Part shown: positions 45,493-60,331 of the stretch, one piece after another | How the letters are laid out: the number at the start of each line of letters is the position of its first letter | Position numbering within the stretch: position 1 is the stretch's first letter | Origin: Sphaerisporangium krabiense | GTDB taxonomy: Bacteria; Actinomycetota; Actinomycetes; Streptosporangiales; Streptosporangiaceae | Length of the DNA stretch: 64,000 bases | Reading direction: 5' to 3' | Assembly (NCBI RefSeq): GCF_014200435.1 | Contig: NZ_JACHBR010000002.1 | Location: 734,501-798,500, forward strand | Translations under genes and position numbers: made by a program | Notes under the pieces: generated by a model | Seen by the model: only the letters and a program-made list of their open reading frames with translations | The model's database searches: none | What the model was told of the DNA's origin: nothing

Positions 45493-45844
45493 GAAACCGC
45501 TTGGACAACCGTCGCCGGCCGGCCCCGGCCGAGGTGGTCGCCGTCTGGGATCGCGGAAAACCGCGGCATGAGTGACCGGTTCGCCGGGTGCGGCGGACAA
45601 TATGCACCTAAATCGGCATTTCTGAGTCGGGGAGGATTCAGCGGCCGACGAGGTGTTCGTCCGTCGATTTTTGTCCTTCCATTGCCGTGCTCGAAGCGCT
45701 CGTGATCGCCGGGCGGGTACGCACGAGATCGATCGTCACCCGTCTTGCATAAGCCCGAATCATGGCGACGCCGGTTCGGCTCACCGCTGACGCCGGTGAA
45801 ACCAGATTCGGGCGAGATGGGCCCGTCAATCGTGCATTTTCCCG

Positions 45845-45871
45845 GGATCCGTCGTCGCGAGTGACGGATCC
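45845..45871. promoter_or_regulatory. Inverted repeat GGATCCGTC-N9-GACGGATCC upstream of the TNT gene
   Basis: Perfect 9-bp arms, ending 43 nt before the TTG start at 45915. It could be an operator or a leader hairpin. Confidence 0.4.
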
Positions 45872-45914
45872 GATGAAACATGCCCGACTTGCCGCACGAA
45901 GCAGGGAGGACCCA

Positions 45915-46691
45915 TTGCGAAACCTTCGCCGGCGCGCGTCGCTGGCCGCCGCCATCGGCATCACCGCCTTGTCCCTCGCCGGTATTCCGGCCCAGGCGGG
46001 CACCGGCCCGAGCCTCGCGCCGACGGCCCGCACCTCCGCCTGGACGGCGCTTCCCGCCGCACCGGTCGCGTTCGCCGCGGCCGAGACGCATAAGGGAGCA
46101 CGGTCCGCCGCGTCGGGCGAGCCCGTCTGCACCGCGCCGTACATCAACGAGGATCAGCGGCTCGGCCCGAAGAGCCTGCCGCAGAAAGGGGTCCTGGGCC
46201 GGATATTGCGGACCTATGTCCCTCTCGGGGGTCTTCCTCCGCAGAAGTTCCTCGACCGCTACTGGGATTGGTCCGTCAACTTCTACCGATTTCCGCCGGA
46301 CTTCGGGTTCGCGCACTCGGGTGGCTATCCGAACGGCAGGCCGCTGATCGCGTCGAAAACCCTGCGCGTCGGTGAACGGGTGGACCGGTTCGGCAGCGAG
46401 AACGGCGCCTTCCTCGCCCCCTACGGAACTCCCTACGAGGAGCGCGGCATTCCACCGACCAGCCTCGACACGTTCCCCGATTCTCCCGAATATCCGTGTA
46501 ACTACCATGTGTATCGGGTGATCAAGGAATTCGCCGTCGATTTCGGGCCCATCGCCTCCGCGTTCCAGCAGCCAGGAGGAGGCTCGCAGTACCACCTGGT
46601 GAGCAGGCTGATCGCCGAGGCGCCCCAGAACCGGGACGAGGTCGCGGTCGGCTGGCTCGTCCAGAACGGGTACCTGGTGCGGCTCAACTGA
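45915..46691 (+). CDS. Secreted TNT-domain protein (probable NAD+ glycohydrolase)
   Basis: 258 residues with a signal peptide (RNLRRRASLAAAIGITALSLAGIPAQAG). The C-terminal TNT domain (tuberculosis necrotizing toxin, about residues 115-256) shows YRFPPDFGF, VDRFGSENGAFLAPYGTPYEER, PPTSLD, NYHVYRVIKEF, GPIASAFQQPGGGSQY and WLVQNGYLVRL. The Arg in DRFG, His in YHVY and Gln in GGGSQY occupy positions known to matter for NADase activity in TNT. TTG 45915 was chosen because GGGAGGA lies directly upstream (45904-45910) and it places the signal peptide at the N-terminus; in-frame upstream codons are less well supported. No adjacent immunity (IFT-like) gene was recognised. It is a stand-alone secreted enzyme rather than a CpnT-like pore fusion. 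Confidence 0.85.
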   Translation: MRNLRRRASLAAAIGITALSLAGIPAQAGTGPSLAPTARTSAWTALPAAPVAFAAAETHKGARSAASGEPVCTAPYINEDQRLGPKSLPQKGVLGRILRTYVPLGGLPPQKFLDRYWDWSVNFYRFPPDFGFAHSGGYPNGRPLIASKTLRVGERVDRFGSENGAFLAPYGTPYEERGIPPTSLDTFPDSPEYPCNYHVYRVIKEFAVDFGPIASAFQQPGGGSQYHLVSRLIAEAPQNRDEVAVGWLVQNGYLVRLN

Positions 46692-47374: not shown

Positions 47375-48664
47375 CTATTCGACCGGCGCCGCCGCGGGTG
47401 TCCCGGCCACGCGTGCCGGAGTGGTGAGGCGCCGGACGTCCGGCACGGCCAGGACCGCCGCGCCGGCGACGAGCTGCCACACCGCGCCGAAGCACAGCAC
47501 GGTCGTGACGCCCGCGACGGCGGCCACGGGACCGGCGGCGGCGAGGCCGACCGGGCCGAGGGCGAAGGCGCCCACGCCGGTGAGCGAGGTGATCCGCGCC
47601 AGGACCTCCGGCGGCACGTGCTGCTGGTTCGTCGTGGCGTACAGGGCCCCGCACACCGCCGAGCCCGCGCCCGCCACCAGCGCGGCGACCGCCACCACGG
47701 GCGTCGACAGGCCCGCGGCCAGAGCGCCCGACGGCAGCGCCCAGCCGAAGGTCGCCACCGTCGCCACCACCAGAGGGCGACGTGGCACGCGCCCGCCCAC
47801 CATCGCCAGACCGCCCGCCATCGCGCCCGCCCCGTACAGGCTCATGATCAGGCCCCACCCCTGGGCGCCGCCGAGGCGTTCGTGCGCCACCACCGGGCCG
47901 AGGACGAGGAACGGCGCCCACACCAGCACGTTGAACAGCGTGAACTGCACGGTCGTGACCCACAGCCAGGTGCGCGCGCGGAAATGGTCCCAGCCCTGGC
48001 GCATCGCGCCCTTCTCCCCGCCGGAGGAGGGCACCGGGGCGTCCGAGACGCGCAGCTTCGCCAGGGCGACCGCGCCCGCCGCGTAGGTCGCCGCGTCCAG
48101 CGCGACCACCACGCTCGCCCCCGCCCCGGCCATCACCGCTCCGGCCAGGACGGGCCCTCCCACGTTCGCCAGGGACTGGGCCAAGCCGGACAGAGCGTTG
48201 GCGTCCCGCAGCTTGCCCTCGTACGGAGTGCCGGAATCGGCGAGCCTGGGGATGAGGCCGCCGCGCGCGGGCATGGCGAACGCCTCGCCCGTACCCCACA
48301 CGACGGCCGCCGCGACGAACGTCCAGATCGACGGGCGGCCGAGGAACAGCGCGGCGGCGAGGACGGCCTGGCTCGCGCCGCGCAGGACGTCCGCCGCGAT
48401 CATGACGCGGCGGGGGCCCACCCGGTCGGCGACGACGCCACCGAGCGGCAGGAGCGCCACCATGGGGACGATCCGCGCCGCCATGATCACGCCGAGCTCG
48501 GTCTGCGTGCCGCCGGTGTCCAGGACGGCGAAGGTGACCGCCAGCGCCGCCATCGACGAGCCGAGCAGCGAGGTCGCCTCGCCCGCGAAGAAGAGCCGCA
48601 GGTCTCTGTACGCCAGAGCGGCCAGGCGTCCGCGCGCCCATTTCCCCAGTGATTTCCGCGCCAT
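47375..48664 (-). CDS. MFS transporter (macrolide-efflux/EntS-like group)
   Basis: 429-residue membrane protein with 12 predicted TM segments. LFFAGEATSLLGSSMAALAV and LPLGGVVADRVGPRRVMIAADVLRG (loop 2-3, G-x3-D-R-x-G-R-R) match the DHA3/enterobactin-exporter-like MFS group. The second half has SLYGAGAMAGGLAMVGGRVPRRPLVV. The substrate is likely a small molecule or drug, but not identifiable. ATG 48664. It reads into the DUF985 cupin gene. It faces the integrase-like gene across 268 bp that hold the promoters; no operator was identified there. Confidence 0.9.
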   Translation of the reverse strand: MARKSLGKWARGRLAALAYRDLRLFFAGEATSLLGSSMAALAVTFAVLDTGGTQTELGVIMAARIVPMVALLPLGGVVADRVGPRRVMIAADVLRGASQAVLAAALFLGRPSIWTFVAAAVVWGTGEAFAMPARGGLIPRLADSGTPYEGKLRDANALSGLAQSLANVGGPVLAGAVMAGAGASVVVALDAATYAAGAVALAKLRVSDAPVPSSGGEKGAMRQGWDHFRARTWLWVTTVQFTLFNVLVWAPFLVLGPVVAHERLGGAQGWGLIMSLYGAGAMAGGLAMVGGRVPRRPLVVATVATFGWALPSGALAAGLSTPVVAVAALVAGAGSAVCGALYATTNQQHVPPEVLARITSLTGVGAFALGPVGLAAAGPVAAVAGVTTVLCFGAVWQLVAGAAVLAVPDVRRLTTPARVAGTPAAAPVE

Positions 48665-48932
48665 GACCGTCCACCTTGCGGTGCCCCGCGAGAGCTTTCA
48701 AGAAGTCGGCTGAGGAAAGTTGAGTCTCTTTACTGCAGGATTCGCACGGCGGCCGCACCTTGCCATCAGGCCGGTACAGAAGCCTAAGTAGACTCGGACG
48801 GCGGCCTCGAGGATTGGGTTTTTACTGCGGTAGAAGGGTGACGACGATGGCACATCCCCACCTAGGAGGAGAAGACGGCGCCGACCGTCCCCGTGCGGTG
48901 ACGCTCGCGAGCGGGACCGAGGGGGACGTGCG

Positions 48933-50174
48933 GTGACGCTCGCGCCCGTCGAGTACGCCGTGGCGGTCGAGCACTACCTTGGCACGCTGCGCCTGGCCGA
49001 GGCGTCCCGGCGCGTGTACCGCATCGCTCTCGCCACCTGGGCGTGGTCCCTCGTCGACCGGCCTCCTCCCGAGGGCAGGGCCCGCCGTGGCGCGGCGCCG
49101 CCCATCGTGCCCCTCGCCTTGCTCGACGCTCCCGACGCACCGCACCGCCTGAGCGTCGCCCTCGCCCACCGGGCCGCCGTCGCCGATCCGCGGACGATCG
49201 GCCGTGAACTGTCCATCCTGCGCGGGGCGATCGCCTGGTGGCGCACGCGCGGGTGGATCACCGCAGATCCGCTCCGCGGGCTCCGTCCCCCGCCTGGGCA
49301 GGCCGCCGAACCCGTGGCGCTCACCTCTGAGCAGATCGAGGCGATCTTCGCGCTGCCGGTTCCGCTGCGCGAGAAGGTCTGCTGGCGGCTGCTGTACGAG
49401 ACCGCCGCCCCGATCGAGCGGCTCCTCGCCCTGAACGTGGACGACCTGGACCTCGGCCGCATGCGGGTTCGCGCCCATCCCGAGAACAGCCGGTCCGGCA
49501 CGGCTCCGAATGGCCGATCGCGGACAGGTACGGCGACCGGCAACCGCCGCCCCGGCACGGCCTCCGGCAACGGCCGTCCGCGGACCGGCACGTCCGCTCC
49601 GAACGCCCCTCAGGCCGGTTGGGCCCCTTGGGCCGACCCGCGGGTGGGTACGGCGGCCCAGACGGGTCGGCAGGCTGGCACGGCGGGGGAGACAGGGCCG
49701 TGGACCGGTACGGCCCCTTGGACCGACCCGCGGGTAGGTACGGGGGCCGAGACGGGTCGGCAGGCCGGTACGGCGGGCGGAACGGGCCCGTGGACCGGTA
49801 CGGCTCCTCGGACGGACCCGCGGGTAGGTATGGCGGCCGAGGCGGGTCGGCAGGGCGGGACGGGCCCGTGGGTTGGAGCGGATGCCGGGACCGGCCCGCA
49901 GGCGGGCGTGGTGTCGGAGATGCGGTGGCGGGCGGGTACGGCGCGGCTCCTGGCGTTGCTCCTGGTCGGGCGGGCCGGTGGTCCGGTCTTCCTCACCGAG
50001 CGCCGGGCCCCGTCCGGCACCGCGCCCCGCGACCGCTGCCCGGTGACCGGCCGCGGCCGATTGTCGTACCGTCGCGCCGCGGAACTCTTCACGGTCGCGA
50101 CCCGTCATCTCGACCCCGACGGCCACGGCTGGACCCTCCGCCACCTCCGCGCGGCCGGCCCCGCCCGCCCGTGA
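48933..50174 (+). pseudogene. Degenerate tyrosine recombinase/integrase with repeat insert and truncated end
   Basis: 413-codon open frame. Residues 1-120 resemble a SAM-like core-binding domain (VEHYLGTLRLAEASRRVYRIAL, ELSILRGAIAWWRTRGWI). LTSEQIEAIFALP and LLYETAAPIERLLALNVDDLDLG match the start of the catalytic domain, but where Arg is expected (as in TGLRVSEL) there is Pro. A Gly/Thr/Pro-rich insert (about residues 185-330) with 90-bp repeats interrupts the domain. The fold then resumes with GGPVFLTERRAP, CPVTGRGRLSYRRAAELF and HGWTLRHLRAAGP, where the H-x-x-R box is cut short; the catalytic Tyr region is missing. It therefore cannot be an active recombinase; it is a decayed or repurposed gene. 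ATG versus GTG start is uncertain. Confidence 0.65.
49606..49875 (+). repeat. 90-bp in-frame tandem repeat, about 3 copies, in the integrase-like gene
   Basis: Units aligned on ACCCGCGGGT at 49636, 49726 and 49816 (exact 90-bp spacing). They encode about TDPRVGTxAETGRQAGTAGG plus TGPWTGTAP per unit. The copies differ at several bases, so the array is not very recent. Confidence 0.9.
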
Positions 50175-50493
50175 GCCACCGACCCAACCCCGGCGCCGAG
50201 CGCCCCGCATGTCCTGCCCCGAACGGGGCGCACCAGAAGTGACCGGTGGTCGGCCGCCGATCACCCCTTTTGGCGAAAGAAATCTACGATGTAAAGGGCC
50301 GTGGTCGGGTCGCCACCCGACATACCGGCGACAGCGGACCCCATGCGACGACAAGGTGTCTGGTCTTCGCGGGGTCAGGTCCCCCGCACTAAAGGGCTCG
50401 CGGGGTCAGCCCTTGAACGGAGCAGGTTCGCTGGGGGGCGGATTGCTCGAACGCACGGGGTTCGCAGGGGCAGGTCGCTCGAAGAGTGCCGGG
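50175..50493. other. Intergenic region with short imperfect repeats
   Basis: 319 bp between the integrase-like gene and the VWA stop. Short recurring phrases (GCGGGGTCAGG, CAGGTCGCTCG) appear several times between 50370 and 50510 and run into the end of the VWA gene. No gene or clean terminator was seen. Confidence 0.5.
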
Positions 50494-51672
50494 TCAGGTC
50501 GCTCGGACGGCGAGGGTGCGTTCGGCCCACTGGGCGATGTCGCGGCGTTCGATCGCGGCGGCCATGAGGTCGGGGAAGGCGTCCGGCGTGCAGGCGAAGG
50601 CCGGCACGCCCAGCGCGGCCAGGGCCTCGGCGTTGTCGCGGTCGTAGTGGGGCTGGCCCTCGTCCGAGAGCGCGAGCAGGACGATGACCTGGACCCCGGC
50701 CGCCGTCATGGCCGCGACCCTGCGCAGCATCTCCTCCCGCACGCCCCCCTCGTACAGGTCGCTGATCAGAATGAAGATCGAGTTCGTCGGCCGGGTGATC
50801 AGCCCCTGGCAGTAGGCGATGGCGCGGTTGATGTCGGTGCCGCCGCCGAGCTGGGTGCCGAACAGCAGCTCGACCGGGTCGTGCAACTGGTCGGTCAGGT
50901 CGACGACGCTGGTGTCGAAGACCACCAGGGACGTGCGCAGCGCGCGCATCGAGGCCAGCACGGCGCCGAAGACGCTCGAATAGACCACCGACGCCGCCAT
51001 CGAGCCGCTCTGGTCGATGCACAGCGTGACCTCGCGGATGACCGCGCGCTGCTTGCGCGCGTAGCCGACCAGCCGCGACGGGACGACGGTGTTCCTCTCG
51101 GGCAGGTAGTTCTTCAGGTTGGCCCTGATCGTGCGGTCCCAGTCGATGTCGGAGACCCGGCGCGGCCGGTGGGTGCGGGCCGACCGGTCGAGCGCGCCGG
51201 TGATGGCCGTCCGCGTGCGCTGCGCCAGCCGGCGCTCCAGGTCGGCGACGACCTTCGCCACCACCGCGCGGGCCGACCGGCGGGCGGTCTCGGGCATCAC
51301 GCGGTTGAGCGAGAGCAGCGTGCCGACGAGGTGGACGTCGGGTTCGACGGCCTCCAGCATCTCGGGTTCCAGCAGGAGGCGGGTGAGGTTGAGGCGTTCG
51401 ATGGCGTCCTTCTGCATGACCTGGACGACCGTCGAGGGGAAGTAGCTGCGGATGTCCCCGAGCCATCGCGCGACCCGGGGCGCGGAGGCGCCGAGGCCCG
51501 CGCCGCGCTGGGCGTCCGCGCGCCCGCCGCCGTCCTGTCCCGTGCCGCGCCCGCCGTTGTAGAGGGCGGCGAGCGCCGCGTCCATCTGGGCGTCGGCGCC
51601 GCCCAGCGCGCAGCCGGTGCCGTCGGCGTCGCCGCCGAGCACCAGCCGCCACCTGCGCAACCGGTCGTCCAT
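50494..51672 (-). CDS. VWA domain protein (CoxE-like), last gene of MoxR/VWA operon
   Basis: 392 residues. The von Willebrand A domain occupies the C-terminal half. The MIDAS motif is CIDQSGSMAAS (D-x-S-x-S), with the conserved Thr in GGGTDINRAI and Asp in ILISDLYEGG. The N-terminal half (ETARRSARAVVAKVVADLERRLAQ, DWDRTIRANLKNYLPERNTVVPSRLVGY) is the helical region found in VWA partners of MoxR ATPases. It would bind a protein ligand through a metal ion, probably together with the MoxR ATPase encoded two genes upstream. ATG 51672 is preferred over GTG 51675 because of spacing from GGAG. The preceding DUF5682 stop is 55 nt away. Confidence 0.9.
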   Translation of the reverse strand: MDDRLRRWRLVLGGDADGTGCALGGADAQMDAALAALYNGGRGTGQDGGGRADAQRGAGLGASAPRVARWLGDIRSYFPSTVVQVMQKDAIERLNLTRLLLEPEMLEAVEPDVHLVGTLLSLNRVMPETARRSARAVVAKVVADLERRLAQRTRTAITGALDRSARTHRPRRVSDIDWDRTIRANLKNYLPERNTVVPSRLVGYARKQRAVIREVTLCIDQSGSMAASVVYSSVFGAVLASMRALRTSLVVFDTSVVDLTDQLHDPVELLFGTQLGGGTDINRAIAYCQGLITRPTNSIFILISDLYEGGVREEMLRRVAAMTAAGVQVIVLLALSDEGQPHYDRDNAEALAALGVPAFACTPDAFPDLMAAAIERRDIAQWAERTLAVRAT

Positions 51673-51727
51673 CACGCGCTCCTTCCCATGTCGTGCCGGC
51701 TTGTGGTCCGCGCGCGGGGCTCGGGGG

Positions 51728-54217
51728 TCATGACGCCTCTCCCAGGATCGTGAGAACGGTGGCGACGGCGGGGCCCGCGCGTTCCGCGTCCGCCTCGGGC
51801 GCCGAGACCGGGGCCGCGTCGCCCGAGGCCACCCGCCCGCCGATGGCGCGGCGCTCCGGCGGGGGGAACGCGCCGAACGTGCGGCGCAGCAGGGGCAGGA
51901 CGTCCACGAACGCCTCGCCGGGCAGGCTCGTCAGCCACGTGTCGATCAGGCCGAGCAGGCCGGCGTCGTGGACCAGGAGAAGGCCGCTGCCGGCCAGGAA
52001 GCCCTCGACCCAGGCGGCGGCCTGCGCGGGCGGGGTGCCCGCCGACATCGCCCGGGACATGCGCAGGGCGACCTCGTCGGCCGGGATCGTGCCGGCGTCG
52101 AGCAGGATGCGGGTCAGCCGGCCGCTGATCAGCCCGTGCAGGTCGCGGCGCTCCGCGATCCCGCGCAGCGTGGCCAGCCAGCCGTCCCTGCGCGACTCCA
52201 GCAGGCCGACGGAGGTGTGCACGGCGTCGACGTGCGCGAGCATCTCGCGGGCGGAGTCGTCGTCGAGCCCGGTGACGGCCGCGGGGAGCCCGGCGCGGAT
52301 GCGGCCGAGCAGGGAGTCCACGATGACCGACAGGCCCGCCGCCGGGGTGCCGCGCACGTCGCCGTAGCGCTGCGTGCGGACCAGCGCGGGCAGGGCCGCC
52401 ATCAGATGCGTCACGTCGTTGTCGAGCGCCGCCCGGGTGGAGATCGACGCCAGGACGTGGGGGAGCGCGTCCGGCAGGTCGGCCAGCAGGCAGCGCTCGG
52501 CCACCGCCGTGAGCTCGGCGAGCGTCCTCGGGGACGACTCGGCGGGAAGCCTCGGACCGGCGTGCCGGGCCGTCCGCGCCGATCCCACGTCCACGAGCTC
52601 GCGCACCCGGGCGGTGGCCGCGGCGGGGACCGTGGTGCCGTACGCGCCGGCCTCGATCAGGTCGACGTCGAACTCCGGGCGCCATGCGAGCGTCCACGAC
52701 TCGCGGAAGGTGCCCTTGCCGCGGGCCTCGCGCGCCGTTCCCCACGCCACGCCGAGCAGCCCGAGACGGTGCAGCAGGCGGCTGCGCTCCAGGTCGAGGG
52801 GCTTGCGAAGGTCCAGGTCGAGTTCGCGCTCCAGCGCCTCGGGGCGCAGCTTCAGGCGGCGCTGCCGGTCGCGCAGGTCGCGCTGGAGCGGGACCATGGG
52901 CGTATCGTCCGGCACGCGGCCGAGCCGTTCGCCGACGACCATGCGCCGCTGGATCAGCTCCACCGGCAGCTCGTCGCCTTCGCAGAGCACCGCGCGGACC
53001 GCCTCGGTCACCTCGCCGAGCCCCGCGAGGGGGTGTCCCCGCACGAGGGCGAGGCTGTCGGCCAGGCGGACGGCCTCGATGACGTGGGCGGAGGAGACCG
53101 GGAGGTCCTCCTCGCGCAGCACGGCGGCGGCCGCGGCGAGCCAGCGTTCGATCGGCTTGTCCGGCGAGGCGAACAGGTGGTCGTACCAGCCGGGCGAGGT
53201 GATGCCCGCGCCGTAGCCGCTCCAGGACGCCAGCCGCCCGTGCGTCCACGGCACCCAGGTCATCTCGACCTTGACCTTGGGAAGCCCCTTCAGCAGGCGC
53301 TCGTCCGGCGCGGCCGGGCCCGGTTCGCGCAGCGCGGGAACGTGCCAGGCGCCGCACACCACGGCGACGTGACGGTGGCCGTCCTTGACCGCGGCGCGCA
53401 TGGTCCTGCGCATGTACGCCTCGCGGCGGGCCTCCTGCTCGTGGGGGGTGTAGCCCTCGCGCACGGCGGCCATGGCGTCGGCGATCACCTCGAACGGGGT
53501 GTCGCCGCGGTGTTCGACGGCGTCCTCCCACCAGCGTTCCGGGTCGTCGTACCCCGCCGCGCCGGCGAGCTCGCCGATCGGGTCCCGGTGCGTGACGGGT
53601 CCCCGCGGGCCGTCCGCCTCGGCGTCCGGGAGGGTGATCCGCTCTCCGGGGTGCGCGCCCGGCTGCCCGCGGCGTGCTTCCGGCTCGCCGGGACGCCCAT
53701 CGGGCTCCTCGGGAGGCGCTTGCGGTTGCCCGGGACCCGCCGCCGGGGGAGTGGGCGCGGTGGTGCCGGGGCCGGCGTCCACGGACGGCGCCACCGGCTC
53801 GGGGTCCGGTTCGGCGGGAGGGCCGGCCAGACCGTGCGTGGCGGGCAGGTCGCAGAAGCGGACGGGGATGCCGGCGCGGATGGCGTACTGGATGGCCTGC
53901 CACTCGGGGGAGAACGTCGCGAACGGCCAGAACGCGGCCCTGGACGGGTCTCCGGGCACGTGGGCCAGCAGCGCGACCGGCGGCTCCATGCCGGGGTCGG
54001 CGGCCAGCGCCACCACGGCGTCGGCCTCCGGCGGGCCCTCGACGAGGACGATGTCCGGGCGCAGCCGCTCCAGCTCGGCGACCACCGCGCGCGCCGACCC
54101 GGGCCCGTGGTGCCGCACGCCGAGCACGCTGAACACCGGCGCGGCCCCGGCGTCCCTGCGGTGCTGCCCGGGCCGTGCGGCGCGCTCCGCCACGGCGGGC
54201 GGCCGCTCAGGAGACAT
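51728..54217 (-). CDS. DUF5682 family protein (possible EreA/ChaN/TraB-like fold)
   Basis: 829 residues. The N-terminal domain has SVLGVRHHGPGSARAVVAELERLRPDI and VLVEGPPEAD, then VAVVCGAWHVPAL; the His pair, Glu and the final G-A-W-H arrangement recall the erythromycin-esterase/ChaN/TraB superfamily of putative metallohydrolases. An acidic/proline-rich linker (residues about 125-235) separates these parts. The rest is mostly helical (PISSAHVIEAVRLADSLALVRGHPLAGL, WDV... SARTARHAGPRL). The family has no proven activity. ATG 54217 overlaps the MoxR stop by 11 nt, so translation is coupled. Within the operon it is the best candidate for an effector or enzyme, which is inference. Confidence 0.85.
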   Translation of the reverse strand: MSPERPPAVAERAARPGQHRRDAGAAPVFSVLGVRHHGPGSARAVVAELERLRPDIVLVEGPPEADAVVALAADPGMEPPVALLAHVPGDPSRAAFWPFATFSPEWQAIQYAIRAGIPVRFCDLPATHGLAGPPAEPDPEPVAPSVDAGPGTTAPTPPAAGPGQPQAPPEEPDGRPGEPEARRGQPGAHPGERITLPDAEADGPRGPVTHRDPIGELAGAAGYDDPERWWEDAVEHRGDTPFEVIADAMAAVREGYTPHEQEARREAYMRRTMRAAVKDGHRHVAVVCGAWHVPALREPGPAAPDERLLKGLPKVKVEMTWVPWTHGRLASWSGYGAGITSPGWYDHLFASPDKPIERWLAAAAAVLREEDLPVSSAHVIEAVRLADSLALVRGHPLAGLGEVTEAVRAVLCEGDELPVELIQRRMVVGERLGRVPDDTPMVPLQRDLRDRQRRLKLRPEALERELDLDLRKPLDLERSRLLHRLGLLGVAWGTAREARGKGTFRESWTLAWRPEFDVDLIEAGAYGTTVPAAATARVRELVDVGSARTARHAGPRLPAESSPRTLAELTAVAERCLLADLPDALPHVLASISTRAALDNDVTHLMAALPALVRTQRYGDVRGTPAAGLSVIVDSLLGRIRAGLPAAVTGLDDDSAREMLAHVDAVHTSVGLLESRRDGWLATLRGIAERRDLHGLISGRLTRILLDAGTIPADEVALRMSRAMSAGTPPAQAAAWVEGFLAGSGLLLVHDAGLLGLIDTWLTSLPGEAFVDVLPLLRRTFGAFPPPERRAIGGRVASGDAAPVSAPEADAERAGPAVATVLTILGEAS

Positions 54218-55271
54218 CGCGGCACGCCCGGTAGAAGTCGCGCCACTCGGGGCGCTCGCGGACCACGGTCTCCAGGTACTCGTGCCAGACCACGCGGTCG
54301 GACACCGGATCCTGGACGACGGCGCCGACGATGCCCGCCGCCACGTCGCCGGGGCGCAGCACGCCGTCACCGAAGTGCGCCGCCAAGGCGATGCCGCTGG
54401 TCACGACCGAGATCGCCTCGGCGGTGCTCAGGGTGCCGCTCGGCGACTTGACGGTCGTGCGGCCGTCAGAGGTGGCCCCCGAGCGCAGCTCGCGGAAGAC
54501 CGTGACGACGCGCCTGATCTCTTCCAGGCCGGTGGGCGTGGGAGGCAGCTCCAGGGACCGGCCGAGCTGGGCGACACGGCGCGCCACGATGTCCACCTCC
54601 TCCTCGGCGCTGGCGGGCACCGGCAGGACGACGGTGTTGAAACGCCGCCGCAGCGCGCTGGACAGCTCGTTGACGCCGCGGTCGCGGTCGTTGGCCGTGG
54701 CGATCACATTGAAGCCGCGGGTCGCCTGGACCTCCTCGTTCAGCTCGGGGATGGGCAGCGTCTTCTCCGACAGGACGGTGATGAGGGCGTCCTGGACGTC
54801 GGACGGCATGCGCGTGAGCTCCTCGACGCGGGCCAGACGGCCCTCGGCCATGGCGCGCATCACCGGGCTCGGCGTCAGCGCCTCGCGCGAGGGACCCTCG
54901 GCGAGCAGCCGGGCGTAGTTCCAGCCGTAGCGGATGGCCTCCTCCGCGGTGCCGGCCGTGCCCTGGACGAGCAGCGTGGAGTCGCCGCTGATCGCCGCGG
55001 CCAGGTGCTCCGACAGCCACGTCTTGGCGGTGCCGGGCACGCCGAGCAGCAGCAGCGCCCTGTCGGTCGCCAGCGTGGCCACGGCCACCTCGACGATGCG
55101 GCGCGGGCCGATGTACTTGGGGGTGATCTGAGCGCCGTCGCCGAGCAGGTAGGTGGTCACGGCCCAGGGCGAGAGCCGCCACCCCGGCGGTCTCGGCCGG
55201 TCGTCCGCCTTGACGAGGATCTCCAGCTCGTCGGCGTACTGGTCTTCCGCGTGGGGCCGCAGAACGGTCAT
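54207..55271 (-). CDS. MoxR-family AAA+ ATPase
   Basis: 354 residues, the usual MoxR length. Walker A is LLLGVPGTAKTWLSEHLA, Walker B-like RLARVEELTRMPSDVQDALITVL, and sensor 1 FNVIATANDRDRGVNELSSALRRRF with the arginine finger region (RRRF). The lid domain follows (EEEVDIVARRVAQLGRSLELP). Such ATPases act as chaperones that remodel partner proteins, often together with VWA proteins; a VWA gene is two genes downstream. ATG 55271. The preceding DUF5691 stop is 86 nt upstream; the 3' end overlaps the DUF5682 start. Confidence 0.93.
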   Translation of the reverse strand: MTVLRPHAEDQYADELEILVKADDRPRPPGWRLSPWAVTTYLLGDGAQITPKYIGPRRIVEVAVATLATDRALLLLGVPGTAKTWLSEHLAAAISGDSTLLVQGTAGTAEEAIRYGWNYARLLAEGPSREALTPSPVMRAMAEGRLARVEELTRMPSDVQDALITVLSEKTLPIPELNEEVQATRGFNVIATANDRDRGVNELSSALRRRFNTVVLPVPASAEEEVDIVARRVAQLGRSLELPPTPTGLEEIRRVVTVFRELRSGATSDGRTTVKSPSGTLSTAEAISVVTSGIALAAHFGDGVLRPGDVAAGIVGAVVQDPVSDRVVWHEYLETVVRERPEWRDFYRACRDVS

Positions 55272-55357
55272 GTCTGTTCAGCTCACTCTCTCGACGTGGA
55301 TGGGGGTCGCGTGGGTGGAGGGCGCGCGGCTCGGAGGTCCTCCGGAGGAGTGGTGGG

Positions 55358-56869
55358 TCATGGGCGTAGCTCGGCGTGCATGTGGCGGCGGAAGCGCAGC
55401 GTGGCGGCGACCTCCTGGACGTGCCACTCGTCCGAGAGCCGGGCGGCCATCTCGTCCATGGCCGGGTCGACGCGCTCGCCGGCCAGGCGGACCAGCTCCT
55501 CGAGGTTCCAGGGCTGGTGCCCCGCCGTCGCGATGATCTTCTCCAGCACGGCCTGGGCCAGGGCGGCTCCCCACGGCGCGGGCAGGCCGCCGAGCATCAT
55601 GATCAACTGGCCGTCGACCGGCTGGTCGTGGACCAGCTCGGCCGCCTTGTCGGCGCGCTCGGCGGGCGGCAGCACGGCGAGCAGGTCGCTCAGCGGCTCC
55701 ACCGCGAACAGCGCCCGTGCCCACTCCGCGTCGTTCTGCAGGACGGCGGCGCGCTCCCAGCCGAGCCTGATCTCCCGGGCCCACTCGCCGATGTTCAGCG
55801 CGACGATCCGCTTGGCGGGCAGCCCGAAGTGATCGGCCCAGAAGGACAGCGGCGTGTGGGCGATGACCTGCTGGAGCCACCAGCTGCGCTGCCCGGTGCC
55901 GGCCGGGGCACGGGACCGGATGCCGTCGCGCTCCATGGCGGCGTCGCAGGCCGCCGGAGGCTCGGCGTGCAGCCGGTCGCCGGTGACGCGCAGGCACAGC
56001 GCCGCGCGTGCGGTCATCCTGAGGCCGAGCCGCGACCGGGGGAGCCGGGTCAGCAGGTCGGCGGCCTGGGCCCTGACCTCGCGGCGCCGGTCGTCCAGCG
56101 CGGCCTCCAGGAACGGCTCGTCGGCCATCGACAGCCCGTCGGACAGGGCGTGGACGAACGCCGCCCGGTCCTCCGGGGTCTCCTTGTCCCAGCCGCGCAG
56201 CAGCAGTGCCCGCGCCTTCGCCGGATCGTCGGCCCGGAGCCCGCGCAGGAAGGAGAGCCGATCGCCTCGCGTGCCGAACTCCCACAGAGGATGCCCGGCC
56301 ACGTCCTCGCCGCCCCCGGCATCGGCGCCACCTGTCCCGCCACCTGCGGCATCGGCAGGAGATGGCCGGGCGGCGCCTGAGGCAGGGACGTGCCGATGCC
56401 GCGGGGCTTCCGTGCCGGCGTGCGCCGGGACGCCGGAGCGGAGGGTGGCCTCTTCCAGGACGTACTTCCAGGTGTCGTTGAGTGTGGCGAGCCACCGGCC
56501 GCGGGCGCCCGCGAGGACGCCGATCGACGGTCGCAGGGACCGGTCGCGCGCGCCGTGGTCGAGCACCGGGGGCAACAGTTTCGCCGGCAGCCGGTAGCCC
56601 AGCGCGGCGGCGGCCTCCAGCCACTCGGGCAGCAGGCGCGACTGCTCGCCGCCGAGAACGCGCGCCAGCCGGTCGGCCGCCGCGCGCGGCACCGGCGGCT
56701 GCTCCTCGGCGGGCGCGGCGGGCAACGGCTCCCCCCTCTGGAGCCGCTGCCCGGCCCGCGCGCCGACCGTGCGGGCCGCCGCCTGGCCGAGCAGGCCGGG
56801 CCGGGGCCGCCGATCGGTGCCGACCAGCGCGGCCGACACCAGCCGCTCCCAATCGTCGATCGTGATCAC
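55358..56869 (-). CDS. DUF5691 family protein
   Basis: 503 residues, largely helical with HEAT-like character (RLSFLRGLRADDPAKARALLLRGW, EDRAAFVHALSDGLSMADEPFLEAALDDRRREVRAQAADLLTRLP). The N-terminus TIDDWERLVSAALVGTDRRP and the C-terminal WNLEELVRLAGERVDPAMD ... FRRHMHAELRP are conserved in the family. A disordered Gly/Ala/His-rich insert (about residues 160-195) is present. GTG 56869 has AGGAG 5-6 nt upstream. No activity is known. It always appears, as here, next to SWIM, MoxR and VWA genes in actinomycetes (from general knowledge), so it is probably a scaffold or adaptor of that system. Confidence 0.85.
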   Translation of the reverse strand: MITIDDWERLVSAALVGTDRRPRPGLLGQAAARTVGARAGQRLQRGEPLPAAPAEEQPPVPRAAADRLARVLGGEQSRLLPEWLEAAAALGYRLPAKLLPPVLDHGARDRSLRPSIGVLAGARGRWLATLNDTWKYVLEEATLRSGVPAHAGTEAPRHRHVPASGAARPSPADAAGGGTGGADAGGGEDVAGHPLWEFGTRGDRLSFLRGLRADDPAKARALLLRGWDKETPEDRAAFVHALSDGLSMADEPFLEAALDDRRREVRAQAADLLTRLPRSRLGLRMTARAALCLRVTGDRLHAEPPAACDAAMERDGIRSRAPAGTGQRSWWLQQVIAHTPLSFWADHFGLPAKRIVALNIGEWAREIRLGWERAAVLQNDAEWARALFAVEPLSDLLAVLPPAERADKAAELVHDQPVDGQLIMMLGGLPAPWGAALAQAVLEKIIATAGHQPWNLEELVRLAGERVDPAMDEMAARLSDEWHVQEVAATLRFRRHMHAELRP

Positions 56870-56936
56870 CAGGACTCCTCTGTCGCGTGAGGCGCGCTGC
56901 CGCCCTCGCGGCGCGCGGACGGACCGGGACGGGAGG

Positions 56937-58307
56937 TCACAGCACCACCACCTGGCCGTCTTCGTCCCATGTGGTGAGGGGACGCAGCCCTCGCGGCGTC
57001 CACTCGGCGGCGACCGTCGCCGGATGCCCCCCGGACACGGCCAGCAGCCGCCAGGGAGCGCCCAGGGAAGGGTGCAAGGGCACACCCTCCGCCTGCTCGC
57101 CCGGCGCGGCGGCGGGGTCGGCGAGGAGCCAGCGGCCGCCTCGGGACGCGGGGACGACGTCGCTCAGGAGGACGGGCCAGGAATCGGCCCAGGGGTCGCC
57201 GGCGATGGCGGCGGCGACCAGATCGAGGACCTCGCGCACGCCGGAGCCGCGGGGCGGTGTGGACGGCAGGGCGCCGTGCCGCGCGGCCACCAGGGCCCGC
57301 AGCGGGGACGCGCCGGGGTAGAAGGCCAGCTCCGCGTCGATGACGGTGCCGGTGACCAGGGTGGCGTCCATGGCCTGGCCGACCGGCGCGAAGGTGAGCA
57401 CGAGCGCGTACCGGCCCGTGGTCTGCCCTTTCAGCCAGACCCTGCGGGCGACCAGACGGTCCTGCTCGTCGTCGCGCTGCCCGAGCACGTGCCACCGGTC
57501 GCGCACGGCGGGCGAGGCCAGGACCTCTTCACGGGAGACGGGGAAGCCGACGCGCGAGCGGACGGTGTCGCGCAGCGGGGCGGGCAGGGAGGCGGCGCGG
57601 CGGTAGCCGACGGCGAGGAGGTTCAGCAGGCCGTACTCGCCGAGCAGGCGGGCCGGCCAGTCTTCCTCGGTGAGGACGCGGTGCAGCCGGGAGACCGCCG
57701 CCGCGACGCCGGGCGCCTGGGCGTCGACCAGCCGTCGCGTCAGCTCCTGCCACTGGGCGGGGGAGCTCTGCCGGGCTCCGGACAGCCCCTGCCCGATCTG
57801 GTCGGCGAGCCAGCGCTCCAGCTCGGCGAGCCCGGCCGCGACCCGCTCCTCCCGCTGGGCGGCACGGCGTTCGGCGGCGGGGTCGGGACCGTCCTCGGCG
57901 GACGCCCCCGTGGGCCCCTGCCCGGCGGAGGGAACATCGGACGCCCGCTCGGCGGTCTTGGCGGCGCGGGCGCGGCGCTGCTCCAGCCACTCGGCCACCC
58001 AGTCGGGGGCGGCCTCGGCGGCGGGCACGTCGCCGGCCGACCAGATCAGCAGCAGGCCGAGGGCGTGTTTGCAGGGGAACTTCCTGCTGGGGCAACTGCA
58101 CCGGTAGGCGGGCTCGCCGAAGTCGACGCACGCGCGGTACGGCGAGGCGCCGCTGCCCTTGCACTCACCCCACAGCGCCCCGGCCCCGACGCCCGTCGCC
58201 GACCACTTGGCCGCAGTGCCGACGCTCTGCGCGCCCTTCTGGGAAGAGGCGTCGGGGGCGAGCGCGAGCACCTGGTCACGGCTCCAACGTTCGATCACGA
58301 GCGGCAC
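56937..58307 (-). CDS. SWIM zinc-finger protein, first gene of the MoxR/VWA operon
   Basis: 456 residues. The SWIM motif C-x-C-x(n)-C-x-H is in AYRCSCPSRKFPCKHALGLLL at about residue 70-90, following KWSATGVGAGALWGECKGSG. The rest is a helical/beta C-terminal region with RRVWLKGQTTGRYALVLTFAPVGQAMD... of unknown function. SWIM fingers bind DNA or proteins. The start is uncertain: GTG 58307 is used, while TTG 58328 and GTG 58298 are possible; there is no strong Shine-Dalgarno. It heads the operon SWIM-DUF5691-MoxR-DUF5682-VWA, with its promoter in the 178 bp before the VOC gene. Confidence 0.88.
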   Translation of the reverse strand: MPLVIERWSRDQVLALAPDASSQKGAQSVGTAAKWSATGVGAGALWGECKGSGASPYRACVDFGEPAYRCSCPSRKFPCKHALGLLLIWSAGDVPAAEAAPDWVAEWLEQRRARAAKTAERASDVPSAGQGPTGASAEDGPDPAAERRAAQREERVAAGLAELERWLADQIGQGLSGARQSSPAQWQELTRRLVDAQAPGVAAAVSRLHRVLTEEDWPARLLGEYGLLNLLAVGYRRAASLPAPLRDTVRSRVGFPVSREEVLASPAVRDRWHVLGQRDDEQDRLVARRVWLKGQTTGRYALVLTFAPVGQAMDATLVTGTVIDAELAFYPGASPLRALVAARHGALPSTPPRGSGVREVLDLVAAAIAGDPWADSWPVLLSDVVPASRGGRWLLADPAAAPGEQAEGVPLHPSLGAPWRLLAVSGGHPATVAAEWTPRGLRPLTTWDEDGQVVVL

Positions 58308-58485
58308 ACTAGCGGCGGCCTCTGACAAAATCGGAGTCCGCGCCTGCCCGCGGCCCGGTCATCTATACCTATGGCGAAACCCCAGGTCAGCGTACGGATG
58401 ATGTCCGCAGTGCCCGCGTGGCCCGTCCGCGGGGCCGGCGGGGCGCGGGGCTCGAGGGGAATACCGGAGCCCGCAGGGGTACGGG

Positions 58486-58854
58486 ATGCCCATGAGTCTC
58501 ATATGGGAACAGGTCGTCATCGACGCCGCCGATCCGGTGGCGCTCGGCCAGTGGTGGACGAAGGCCCTCGGCTGGGTGGTGGTCAACGACGCCGAGGACG
58601 AATACGAGATCAGGGTCGCCCCCGACCTCCTGCCCGGGCTGATCTTCGTGCCCGTGCCGGAGGGCAAGCAGGTGAAGAACCGCCTGCATCTGGACTTCCG
58701 CCCGAAAGATCAGAAGGCGGAGGTGGAGCGCCTGCTCGCGCTCGGCGCCCGCCCGGCCGACGTGGGTCAGGGTGACGAGCGGTGGGTCGTGCTCGTCGAC
58801 CCGGAGGGCAACGAGTTCTGCGTGCTCTCCGACCGCCGGCAGGACGCGGTGTGA
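58486..58854 (+). CDS. VOC-superfamily (glyoxalase-like) protein
   Basis: 122-residue single-domain protein. LIWEQVVIDAADPVALGQWWTKALGW is the beta-alpha-beta-beta start of the VOC fold, NRLHLDFRPKD supplies a metal-ligand-like His, and VVLVDPEGNEFCVLSD is the end motif with the conserved Glu. This Glyoxalase_6-like subgroup is widespread in actinomycetes; function unassigned. ATG 58486 follows AGGGG; ATG 58492 is two codons later. Confidence 0.85.
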   Translation: MPMSLIWEQVVIDAADPVALGQWWTKALGWVVVNDAEDEYEIRVAPDLLPGLIFVPVPEGKQVKNRLHLDFRPKDQKAEVERLLALGARPADVGQGDERWVVLVDPEGNEFCVLSDRRQDAV

Positions 58855-58957
58855 CGATCGCCGGCCGATGGGGGGCGTGGCCGTCGCCGATGACCTAGGA
58901 CCAAAGACCGAGAGGGGCCCGATGCGGCAGCGCCAAATCAGGACATAACGTAACCCA

Positions 58958-60331
58958 GTGTCCTCAGCTGTGATCGATTCCCCCGTCGGCCCCCCTCCCG
59001 GCGTGTTGAGCCGTCCGTACCGGGCGATCAGCGTCGGCATGGTGGCGCTGATCCTCCTCGTGGCCTTCGAGTATCTGGCGGTGGCCACCGCGATGCCGGT
59101 GGTCGCCAGGAGCCTGCACGGCCTGCCGCTCTATGGGCTGGCCTTCAGCGGCTCCATGGCGGCGAGCGTGATCGCGACCGTGGCGGGCGGCCGGTGGAGC
59201 GACGTCCGCGGCCCCGTCGCCCCCTTGTGGGCGGGGGTGGGCGGTTTCACCCTCGGCCTGCTCATCGCGGGCTTCGCCCCGAGCATGCACGTCCTGATCG
59301 CCGGCCGGTTCGTCCAGGGCATCGGCGGCGGCCTGTTCTCCGTCGCGCTGTACGTGGTCGTGGCCCAGGTGTTCCCCGCCGCGATGCACCCCAAGGCGTT
59401 CTCGCTGCTCGCGGCGGCCTGGGTGCTCCCCTCGGTGGTCGGCCCGGCGATCACCGGTGCCGTGGTGGAGCACGTGGGCTGGCGGTGGATCTTCCTCGGC
59501 ATCCCGCTGTTCGTCGCGCCCGCCGCGCTGCTGCTGTGGCGCGGCCTGGCGGGCAGGACCACCGTGCCTCCCGCGTCCGACGGCGCGCCGGGCACCGGGT
59601 TTCGCGCCCGGCTGCTCTGGGGCGGCGTGGTGGCCGTCGGCGCGGCGCTCCTGCAGTACGGCAGCGGCCTCGGCCCGGGCGGCTTCCCGCTGCTGGCGGC
59701 GGGCCTGCTGATCCTCGCCTTCGCCCTGCCCAGACTGCTGCCCCGGGGCACCCTGCGCGCGGCGCGCGGCTTCCCCGCCGTGGTCCTGCTGCGCGGCCTG
59801 GCCGCGGGCGCGGTGTTCGCGGCCGACGTGTTCATCCCGCTCATGCTGACCGGCCAGCGCGGCCTGAGCCCGACCCAGGCCGGGCTCTTCCTCACCGGGT
59901 CCGCGCTGAGCTGGTCGTTCGCCTCGTGGGTGCAGGGGCGCGGCCGGCACGACCGCAACAAGCTGCTGCGTCTCGGCACCACCATGCTGTCCGCGGGCGT
60001 CGCGGGCGCCGCGCTGCTGGTCTTCGCCCCCGTGCCGCTGGCCGCCGGCCTGGTCGCCTGGCTGGCCGCCGGGTTCGGCATCGGCCTGGTCTACCCGATC
60101 CTGTCGGTCCTCACCCTGGAGCTGTCCGCGCCGGGCCAGGAGGGCGTGAACACCTCGTCCCTGCAGATCGGCGAATCGGTCTTCTCCGTCGTGATCATGG
60201 CGGTCACCGGCGCGGTGTTCGCCGGGCTGGACACCGCGTGGTGGGTGTACCTGCTGTGCTTCGGGCTCATCGCCGCGCAGGCTCTTCTCGGGTTGCTGAT
60301 CAGCGGCCGGGTGCGGCCTGTCAGCCCCTGA
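58958..60331 (+). CDS. MFS transporter (DHA2-like)
   Basis: 457 residues, 12-14 TM segments. LLVAFEYLAVATAMPVVARSL is the DHA2-type TM1 motif (in place of L-D-x-T-I-V-N-V-A), and GGRWSDVRGPVAPLW the loop 2-3 motif. FVQGIGGGLFSVALYVVVAQVF and VLPSVVGPAITGAVVEHVGWRWIFLGIPLF (G-P-x-x-G, WRWIF) are motif C and the following helix, typical of drug/H+ antiporters. GTG 58958 was used. The upstream 100 bp lacks a recognised regulator gene. Substrate unknown. Confidence 0.9.
   Translation: MSSAVIDSPVGPPPGVLSRPYRAISVGMVALILLVAFEYLAVATAMPVVARSLHGLPLYGLAFSGSMAASVIATVAGGRWSDVRGPVAPLWAGVGGFTLGLLIAGFAPSMHVLIAGRFVQGIGGGLFSVALYVVVAQVFPAAMHPKAFSLLAAAWVLPSVVGPAITGAVVEHVGWRWIFLGIPLFVAPAALLLWRGLAGRTTVPPASDGAPGTGFRARLLWGGVVAVGAALLQYGSGLGPGGFPLLAAGLLILAFALPRLLPRGTLRAARGFPAVVLLRGLAAGAVFAADVFIPLMLTGQRGLSPTQAGLFLTGSALSWSFASWVQGRGRHDRNKLLRLGTTMLSAGVAGAALLVFAPVPLAAGLVAWLAAGFGIGLVYPILSVLTLELSAPGQEGVNTSSLQIGESVFSVVIMAVTGAVFAGLDTAWWVYLLCFGLIAAQALLGLLISGRVRPVSP

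Follow-up and report, generated by a model that had tools for sequence, protein, structure and literature searches.

YehL is a named subfamily of the MoxR AAA+ ATPases that includes YehL of Escherichia coli (PMC3893208, PMC11432383), the two papers being devoted to RavA-ViaA and to an MRP-type MoxR; no biochemical study of the YehL subfamily was found in the literature searched. Here we describe a locus from Sphaerisporangium krabiense, analysed within a stretch of 64,000 nucleotides (nt) of contig NZ_JACHBR010000002.1 (assembly GCF_014200435.1, positions 734,501 to 798,500; hereafter the window), where sequence and Pfam place five intact minus-strand genes at 50494-58307 in the order SWIM, DUF5691, MoxR, DUF5682 and VWA_CoxE. 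Judged by sequence comparison, this locus is a YehL-type MoxR/VWA cassette, to which the E. coli genes yehL-yehM-yehP-yehQ are homologous, and its proteins probably form one machine. As far as we could see from the literature searched, the cassette is of a known but uncharacterised kind: no publication naming DUF5682 and no functional study of the yeh cassette genes was found, the only listed titles with at least two of the yeh gene names being two genome reports, and a wider absence is not claimed.

The YehL-type features in the window are a MoxR protein closest to YehL, an adjacent VWA_CoxE protein with a metal-ion-dependent adhesion site (MIDAS), and linked DUF5682 and SWIM genes. The MoxR protein (54207-55271, minus strand as for all five; 354 amino acids, aa; AAA_5, PF07728, E 5.9e-39) shares 43% identity with E. 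coli YehL over 353 aligned positions (249 bits), and PDB offers just two matches at E<=0.01, midasin with 66 bits and NorQ with 44 bits (E 1.4e-10 for NorQ chains), such PDB chains being the route by which other MoxR subfamilies were compared. Its gene overlaps by 11 nt that of the YehM homologue DUF5682 (51728-54217, with the start corrected to 54217; 829 aa; PF18934, E 3.9e-279), which is followed after 55 nt by the gene of the YehP homologue VWA_CoxE (50494-51675; 393 aa; PF05762, E 6.9e-54), whose MIDAS is intact. The first gene of the cassette encodes the SWIM zinc-finger protein (56937-58307; 456 aa; PF04434, E 7e-06) and lies 67 nt ahead of that for DUF5691 (55358-56869; about 503 aa; PF18944, E 8.6e-132), whose start was corrected to near 56869, at a GTG behind the GAGGAG resembling a ribosome-binding site, and which is separated from MoxR by 86 nt. 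With Pfam E-values between 7e-06 (SWIM) and 3.9e-279 (DUF5682), the five-gene set lies far beyond chance, and a preliminary description of the locus as five same-strand genes with short gaps or overlaps holds on coordinates, Pfam matches and distances alike.

The E. coli record was found through a plasmid search with DUF5682 and carries the annotations yehL, yehM, yehP and yehQ; Pfam identifies yehM as DUF5682 and yehQ as a SWIM protein. As in the window, MoxR, DUF5682, VWA_CoxE and SWIM genes stand together on the same strand; the E. coli cassette differs in that SWIM comes last instead of first and DUF4132 takes the place of DUF5691, and YehM and the window DUF5682 are 25% identical. It comes behind a WGR-DUF4132 gene and a DUF4132 gene (upstream DUF4132 genes, yehI). 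On an E. coli plasmid (locus L034), two IS26 transposase genes flank the yehI-yehLMPQ region, with resistance genes nearby; the region is apparently chromosomal DNA that was carried along. The E. coli layout recurs in a second cassette of the window genome (L100, 4638-14227 on contig 1), with DUF4132, MoxR, DUF5682, VWA_CoxE and a YehQ-like protein of 639 aa that has 25% identity to YehQ and no Pfam SWIM match; the SWIM protein of the window cassette is a remote counterpart of YehQ. Relatives hold two further paralogous layouts. In one, DUF5682 and VWA_CoxE are read in a single 1,300-aa open reading frame (ORF), behind which comes a SWIM-like protein that scores below cut-off; the other is made up of VWA, MoxR and a distant form of DUF5682. 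A class-B cassette (L101, 1445-12036) has a frame of 1,696 aa that matches no Pfam family, then MoxR, then DUF5682 and VWA in a single frame, and a class-D cassette (L104, 3940-11237) has a frame of 629 aa, likewise unmatched in Pfam, ahead of VWA, MoxR and a very divergent DUF5682 (112.6 bits). A Rhizobium etli plasmid is annotated with the window's five-gene order, which is also present on a Hymenobacter radiodurans plasmid, where DUF5682 is in three overlapping pieces and VWA was recognised via BLAST only.

DUF5682 occurs in 11/11 genomes of the genus, the window's own included, and in 122/150 genomes (112/130 of good quality) and 55/68 genera of the family, the genus, family and phylum counts being those of the Pfam family with paralogues included. 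DUF5691 was found in 109/150 family genomes and, over its cut-off, in 18/296 genomes of a phylum-wide draw, with three further genomes below the cut-off and without DUF5682; each of the 18 is one of the 21 genomes of the draw that hold DUF5682, both genes lying within 3.5 kb by position. Of the best 80 loci, 62 contain the same five genes in one of two layouts: 40, from Actinomycetota, Cyanobacteriota, Melainabacteria, Chloroflexota, Planctomycetota and Pseudomonadota, keep exactly the window's order with all genes in one direction, and in 22, all of them Kitasatosporales, SWIM-DUF5691 is divergent from MoxR-DUF5682-VWA. These 80 were retained from at least 589 relatives in named genomes, so the sample is biased towards close kin. 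The other 18 loci are partial; in 13 of them the contig stops no more than about 510 nt away on the side where genes are missing.

The gene tree of DUF5682 (84 rows, quick method, 9 rows ungrouped) largely follows taxonomy at the order level, with 15 changes for 15 orders against a minimum of 14 and three listed orders that need two changes each; the window genome groups with Sphaerisporangium corydalis, and transfers between phyla would be compatible with this tree. A cupin, MFS or enolase-superfamily neighbour is kept in many Streptosporangiaceae loci, and the cassette lies beside sucCD in 25/26 Kitasatosporales loci examined and in one Catenulispora; that stretch also holds pcrA in 21 of the Kitasatosporales loci and in the Catenulispora. 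Since the tree lies near taxonomy and the flanks are conserved, these data argue against accessory DNA, as which the genus-wide cassette, present in most of the family, had been described; the 'broadly conserved, vertically inherited operon' that the same description had set against its own reading is, in that half, largely what we found. In E. coli, yehM is present in 5,284/5,426 genomes and 5,289/5,291 of its places are chromosomal. DUF5682 occurs in 36/72,556 records of a plasmid collection, some of them chromosome-sized, and none was confirmed in a scan of viral contigs. An unannotated faecal record labelled 'Bacteriophage sp.' (MT835988.1, 9344-12755) encodes VWA and DUF5682 relatives and is probably a bacterial contig. 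Overall, the cassette is old and, in the window's lineage, mostly vertically inherited; its occurrence over the phylum is patchy, and E. coli can do without it in the laboratory.

Conservation at the residue level bears out the MoxR/VWA core with Walker motifs and MIDAS that had been described. Walker A residues G77, P79, G80, T81 and K83 of MoxR are invariant in 19/19 aligned rows, and in the same alignment the Walker B site of the family is an E-E variant ('VEELTR') of the canonical D-E form. In the VWA protein, MIDAS residues D221, S223 and S225 are invariant in 23/23 rows, E. coli among them; the VWA_CoxE domain spans residues 150-367 of 393, Pfam detected no effector family, and none of the 23 rows runs far beyond the domain. 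The Cys/His motif ascribed to the SWIM protein is likewise upheld, C70, C72, C79 and H81 being invariant in 24/24 rows. DUF5691 is predicted to be an all-helical, solenoid-like repeat protein: its AlphaFold2 model is mostly helical (mean predicted local distance difference test score, pLDDT, 85.6) and gave no Foldseek match at E<=0.001, a combination in keeping with a predicted scaffold. One-frame fusions join DUF5682 to VWA (Pfam-checked in L101; shared frame in L090, L102 and L103) and SWIM to DUF5691 (Pfam-checked in L184; shared frame in L085 and L128). Because these fusions and the Kitasatosporales split divide the set at the same place, we read two physical sub-modules, likely a motor and active part made up of MoxR, VWA and DUF5682 and a part for recognition consisting of SWIM and DUF5691, which supports the separate SWIM and helical DUF5691 unit proposed earlier; the fusions are strong leads, short of proof. 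Distances within the set are correlated, with Spearman coefficients of 0.855-0.919 over 66 rows in which one genome or more is represented twice. Flanking families common to at least three orders occur in at most 4/67 loci examined (of the best 80), and since no other family recurs usefully near the cassette across orders, the set looks self-contained.

DUF5682 is the putative active component. Its residues R35, H36, E60 and H292 are invariant in 35/35 rows and also in 30/30 rows that include E. coli and Rhizobium. The structural model (pLDDT 83.9; predicted template modelling score 0.79) contains an N-terminal alpha/beta domain at about residues 25-340 with TraB/ChaN-like motifs and a low-confidence insert at 138-209, and a helical, solenoid-like C-terminal part. 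The invariant residues H36, E60, G289 and H292 match the motif order of four TraB and six ChaN sequences, as judged by eye and with no chance estimate; by the same inspection TraB/PrgY/GumN and ChaN share with DUF5682 a G-x-x-H, a Glu, a conserved Met/Ile helix stretch and a second G-x-x-H in this order, and they differ in that the long helical C-terminal half is DUF5682's own and the profile match is weak. In profile-profile comparison TraB scored 26.9 (E 0.012; shuffles averaged 13.9, standard deviation 2.2, 0/60 as high), ChaN 22.1 (1/60 shuffles equally high) and EreA 17.1 (14/60 as high), the last being a weak test with which remote kinship is compatible. Of the EreA/ChaN-like His/Glu pattern originally proposed, the invariant His/Glu/His stands and a ChaN/TraB relationship is weakly indicated, whereas the EreA part found no support.

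On this basis we tentatively propose, with slightly less than even confidence, that a MoxR AAA+/VWA machine acts via ATP on the TraB/ChaN-like DUF5682, with SWIM-DUF5691 recognising the target. The VWA protein, through its MIDAS, would dock on the MoxR ring and hold DUF5682; ATP hydrolysis by MoxR would remodel the DUF5682-VWA unit and either load metal into the His/Glu/His site of DUF5682 or expose it; SWIM-DUF5691 would recognise a protein or nucleic acid target and recruit the machine; and the outcome would be a hydrolase or cofactor-handling activity switched on in a pathway of stress or maintenance rather than in a response specific to phage. We infer all of these steps beyond the formation of one machine. 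DUF5682 is placed as the object of MoxR-VWA because of the analogy with NorQ/NorD, in which force on the NorD linker is reported to permit metal insertion (PMC13036017), and because it adjoins VWA in 62 complete loci and shares a single frame with it in some paralogues.

Several points weigh against this proposal. It is from fusions and gene order that DUF5682, and not an outside protein, is inferred to be the client; some one-frame fusions may be adjoining genes without an intervening stop in GC-rich DNA, and the correlated distances could equally reflect shared species history. The kinship of DUF5682 with TraB/ChaN is weakly suggested by motifs and weak profile scores, a reversed-alignment control against EreA scored 28.8 and thereby exceeded both the TraB and the ChaN score, and Foldseek, used alone with the DUF5682 model, returned no match at E<=0.001. 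DUF5682 is patchy over the phylum (21/296 in the phylum-wide draw), and partial loci L148, L171, L174 and L187 are unexplained by contig ends, L152 only in part explained. Experiments on a YehL-type cassette were not found in the literature searched, and yehL-yehQ are dispensable, E. coli DGF-298 being described as carrying a 29-kb deletion that includes them (PMC10652928).

A different division of labour, which we regard as rather unlikely, would make DUF5682 a catalytically inert adaptor, with MoxR, VWA, DUF5682 and SWIM together maturing an unlinked metallo-enzyme or complex in the manner of NorQ/NorD, CbbQ/CbbO and RavA/ViaA. CbbQ/CbbO acts on a separate enzyme, and the helical, solenoid-like C-terminal half predicted for DUF5682 would suit binding. 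The other characterised pairs known to us also work on a separate enzyme, RavA-ViaA on Nuo (PMC3893208) and NorQ/NorD on nitric oxide reductase (PMC13036017), in the accounts given there. Yet no linked client emerged, as the scarcity of shared flanking families (at most 4/67 loci) illustrates, and the four residues of DUF5682 remain invariant even in aligned distant paralogues. It is also unlikely, in a separate reading, that the cassette is an ATP-gated hydrolase of novel design in which the MoxR ring and the VWA tether twist DUF5682, as a TraB/TIKI-like metalloprotease or hydrolase, into activity, and in which an exchangeable scaffold (DUF5691 or DUF4132) and the SWIM finger pick the targets; if true, this would make E. 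coli yehLMPQ a model system.

That the cassette is a nucleic-acid-stress machine, with SWIM and the WGR/DUF4132-linked version indicating that what it senses is DNA or RNA, strikes us as very unlikely. The E. coli gene order behind WGR-DUF4132 and DUF4132 fits it, as do the presence of both DUF5682 and DUF5691 in Deinobacterium chartae, one of 14 control genomes, the H. radiodurans plasmid cassette, and a Deinococcus plasmid with a DUF5682 match; pcrA lies nearby in many Streptomyces loci, but this proximity is limited to the 21 Kitasatosporales loci and one Catenulispora, and SWIM fingers bind proteins too.

A defence or other conflict system with DUF5682 as the effector, in line with the preliminary description and with what has been published on other MoxR-VWA ternary systems, is the least likely of these readings. 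MoxR-vWA conflict systems are described as wide in Actinobacteria (Kaur et al. 2020, PMC7159879), in whose main text the words SWIM, DUF5691 and Yeh do not occur, and a CRISPR survey ties vWA-MoxR-VMAP systems to CRISPR loci and, in a legend on CRISPR-associated genes, mentions SWIM (PMC10910872); relatives have up to five DUF5682 matches per genome, some of which are a single gene in two pieces, and plasmid records exist as given above. Nevertheless, the proposal is not sustained, given that PADLOC with six proteins matched no family at E<=0.001 (the best of three listed matches was IetA, E 0.0037, over a 30-residue stretch of MoxR), that the VWA protein carries no effector domain, that architectural turnover is low among the best 80 loci even if paralogous cassettes do vary in layout, that sites are fixed beside sucCD or cupin/MFS/enolase-type genes, that yehM is nearly always chromosomal and that no viral contig was confirmed, and nothing we found speaks for a conflict system in the case of this particular cassette.

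Beside the cassette, and not a member of it, lies a truncated XerC/D-like recombinase ORF (48933-50174, plus strand; NCBIfam XerC, E 6e-09, 35.7 bits where the cut-off is 335; no Pfam match), without recognisable catalytic Arg/His/Tyr when set against what we take to be the XerC motifs. In the window and L112 it carries a long Thr/Gly-rich insert, in the window a 90-nt coding repeat (array 49615-49863), that is absent from five other full-length relatives. At 10 cassette loci of other genus genomes the ORF is long and open in six, a fragment in one and absent from three, two of which are cut by contig ends; the 'decayed integrase' of the earlier account is only partly right. In a comparison of window 48600-59000 with L108 and L110-L113, the VWA-to-SWIM block, together with any glyoxalase gene, is turned around within its flanks in the window, L112 and L113 as against L108, L110 and L111; one breakpoint adjoins the XerC-like ORF, and clean inverted repeats were not seen. 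Adjoining the cupin gene, 45762-46691 encodes a tuberculosis necrotizing toxin (TNT)-type domain protein (Pfam E 7.4e-30), and such a gene recurs in L112, L113 and L120.

Set against the described systems, the window shares with VMAP and other MoxR-vWA ternary systems the MoxR-vWA core (bpMoxR at 24.6 bits, below the cut-off of 27) and differs from VMAP-type systems in lacking a VWA effector domain and a third-component match and in its stable architecture; no VMAP or other third-component Pfam family matched the five proteins at E<=0.01, in a library whose inclusion of these models was unchecked. With NorQ/NorD it shares a MoxR AAA+ protein paired with a VWA protein, the client of NorQ/NorD being a known enzyme; to our knowledge, DUF5682, SWIM and DUF5691 are not part of NorQ/NorD or CbbQ/CbbO. 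To the known cassette we add the TraB/ChaN lead, the exchangeable partner and the fusions. What emerges from the comparison is a stable core of MoxR, DUF5682, VWA and SWIM, together with two likely physical sub-modules, a swappable partner and residues to mutate, and this turns an undefined operon of a laboratory organism, in whose complete genomes yehM is near-universal, into a testable problem.

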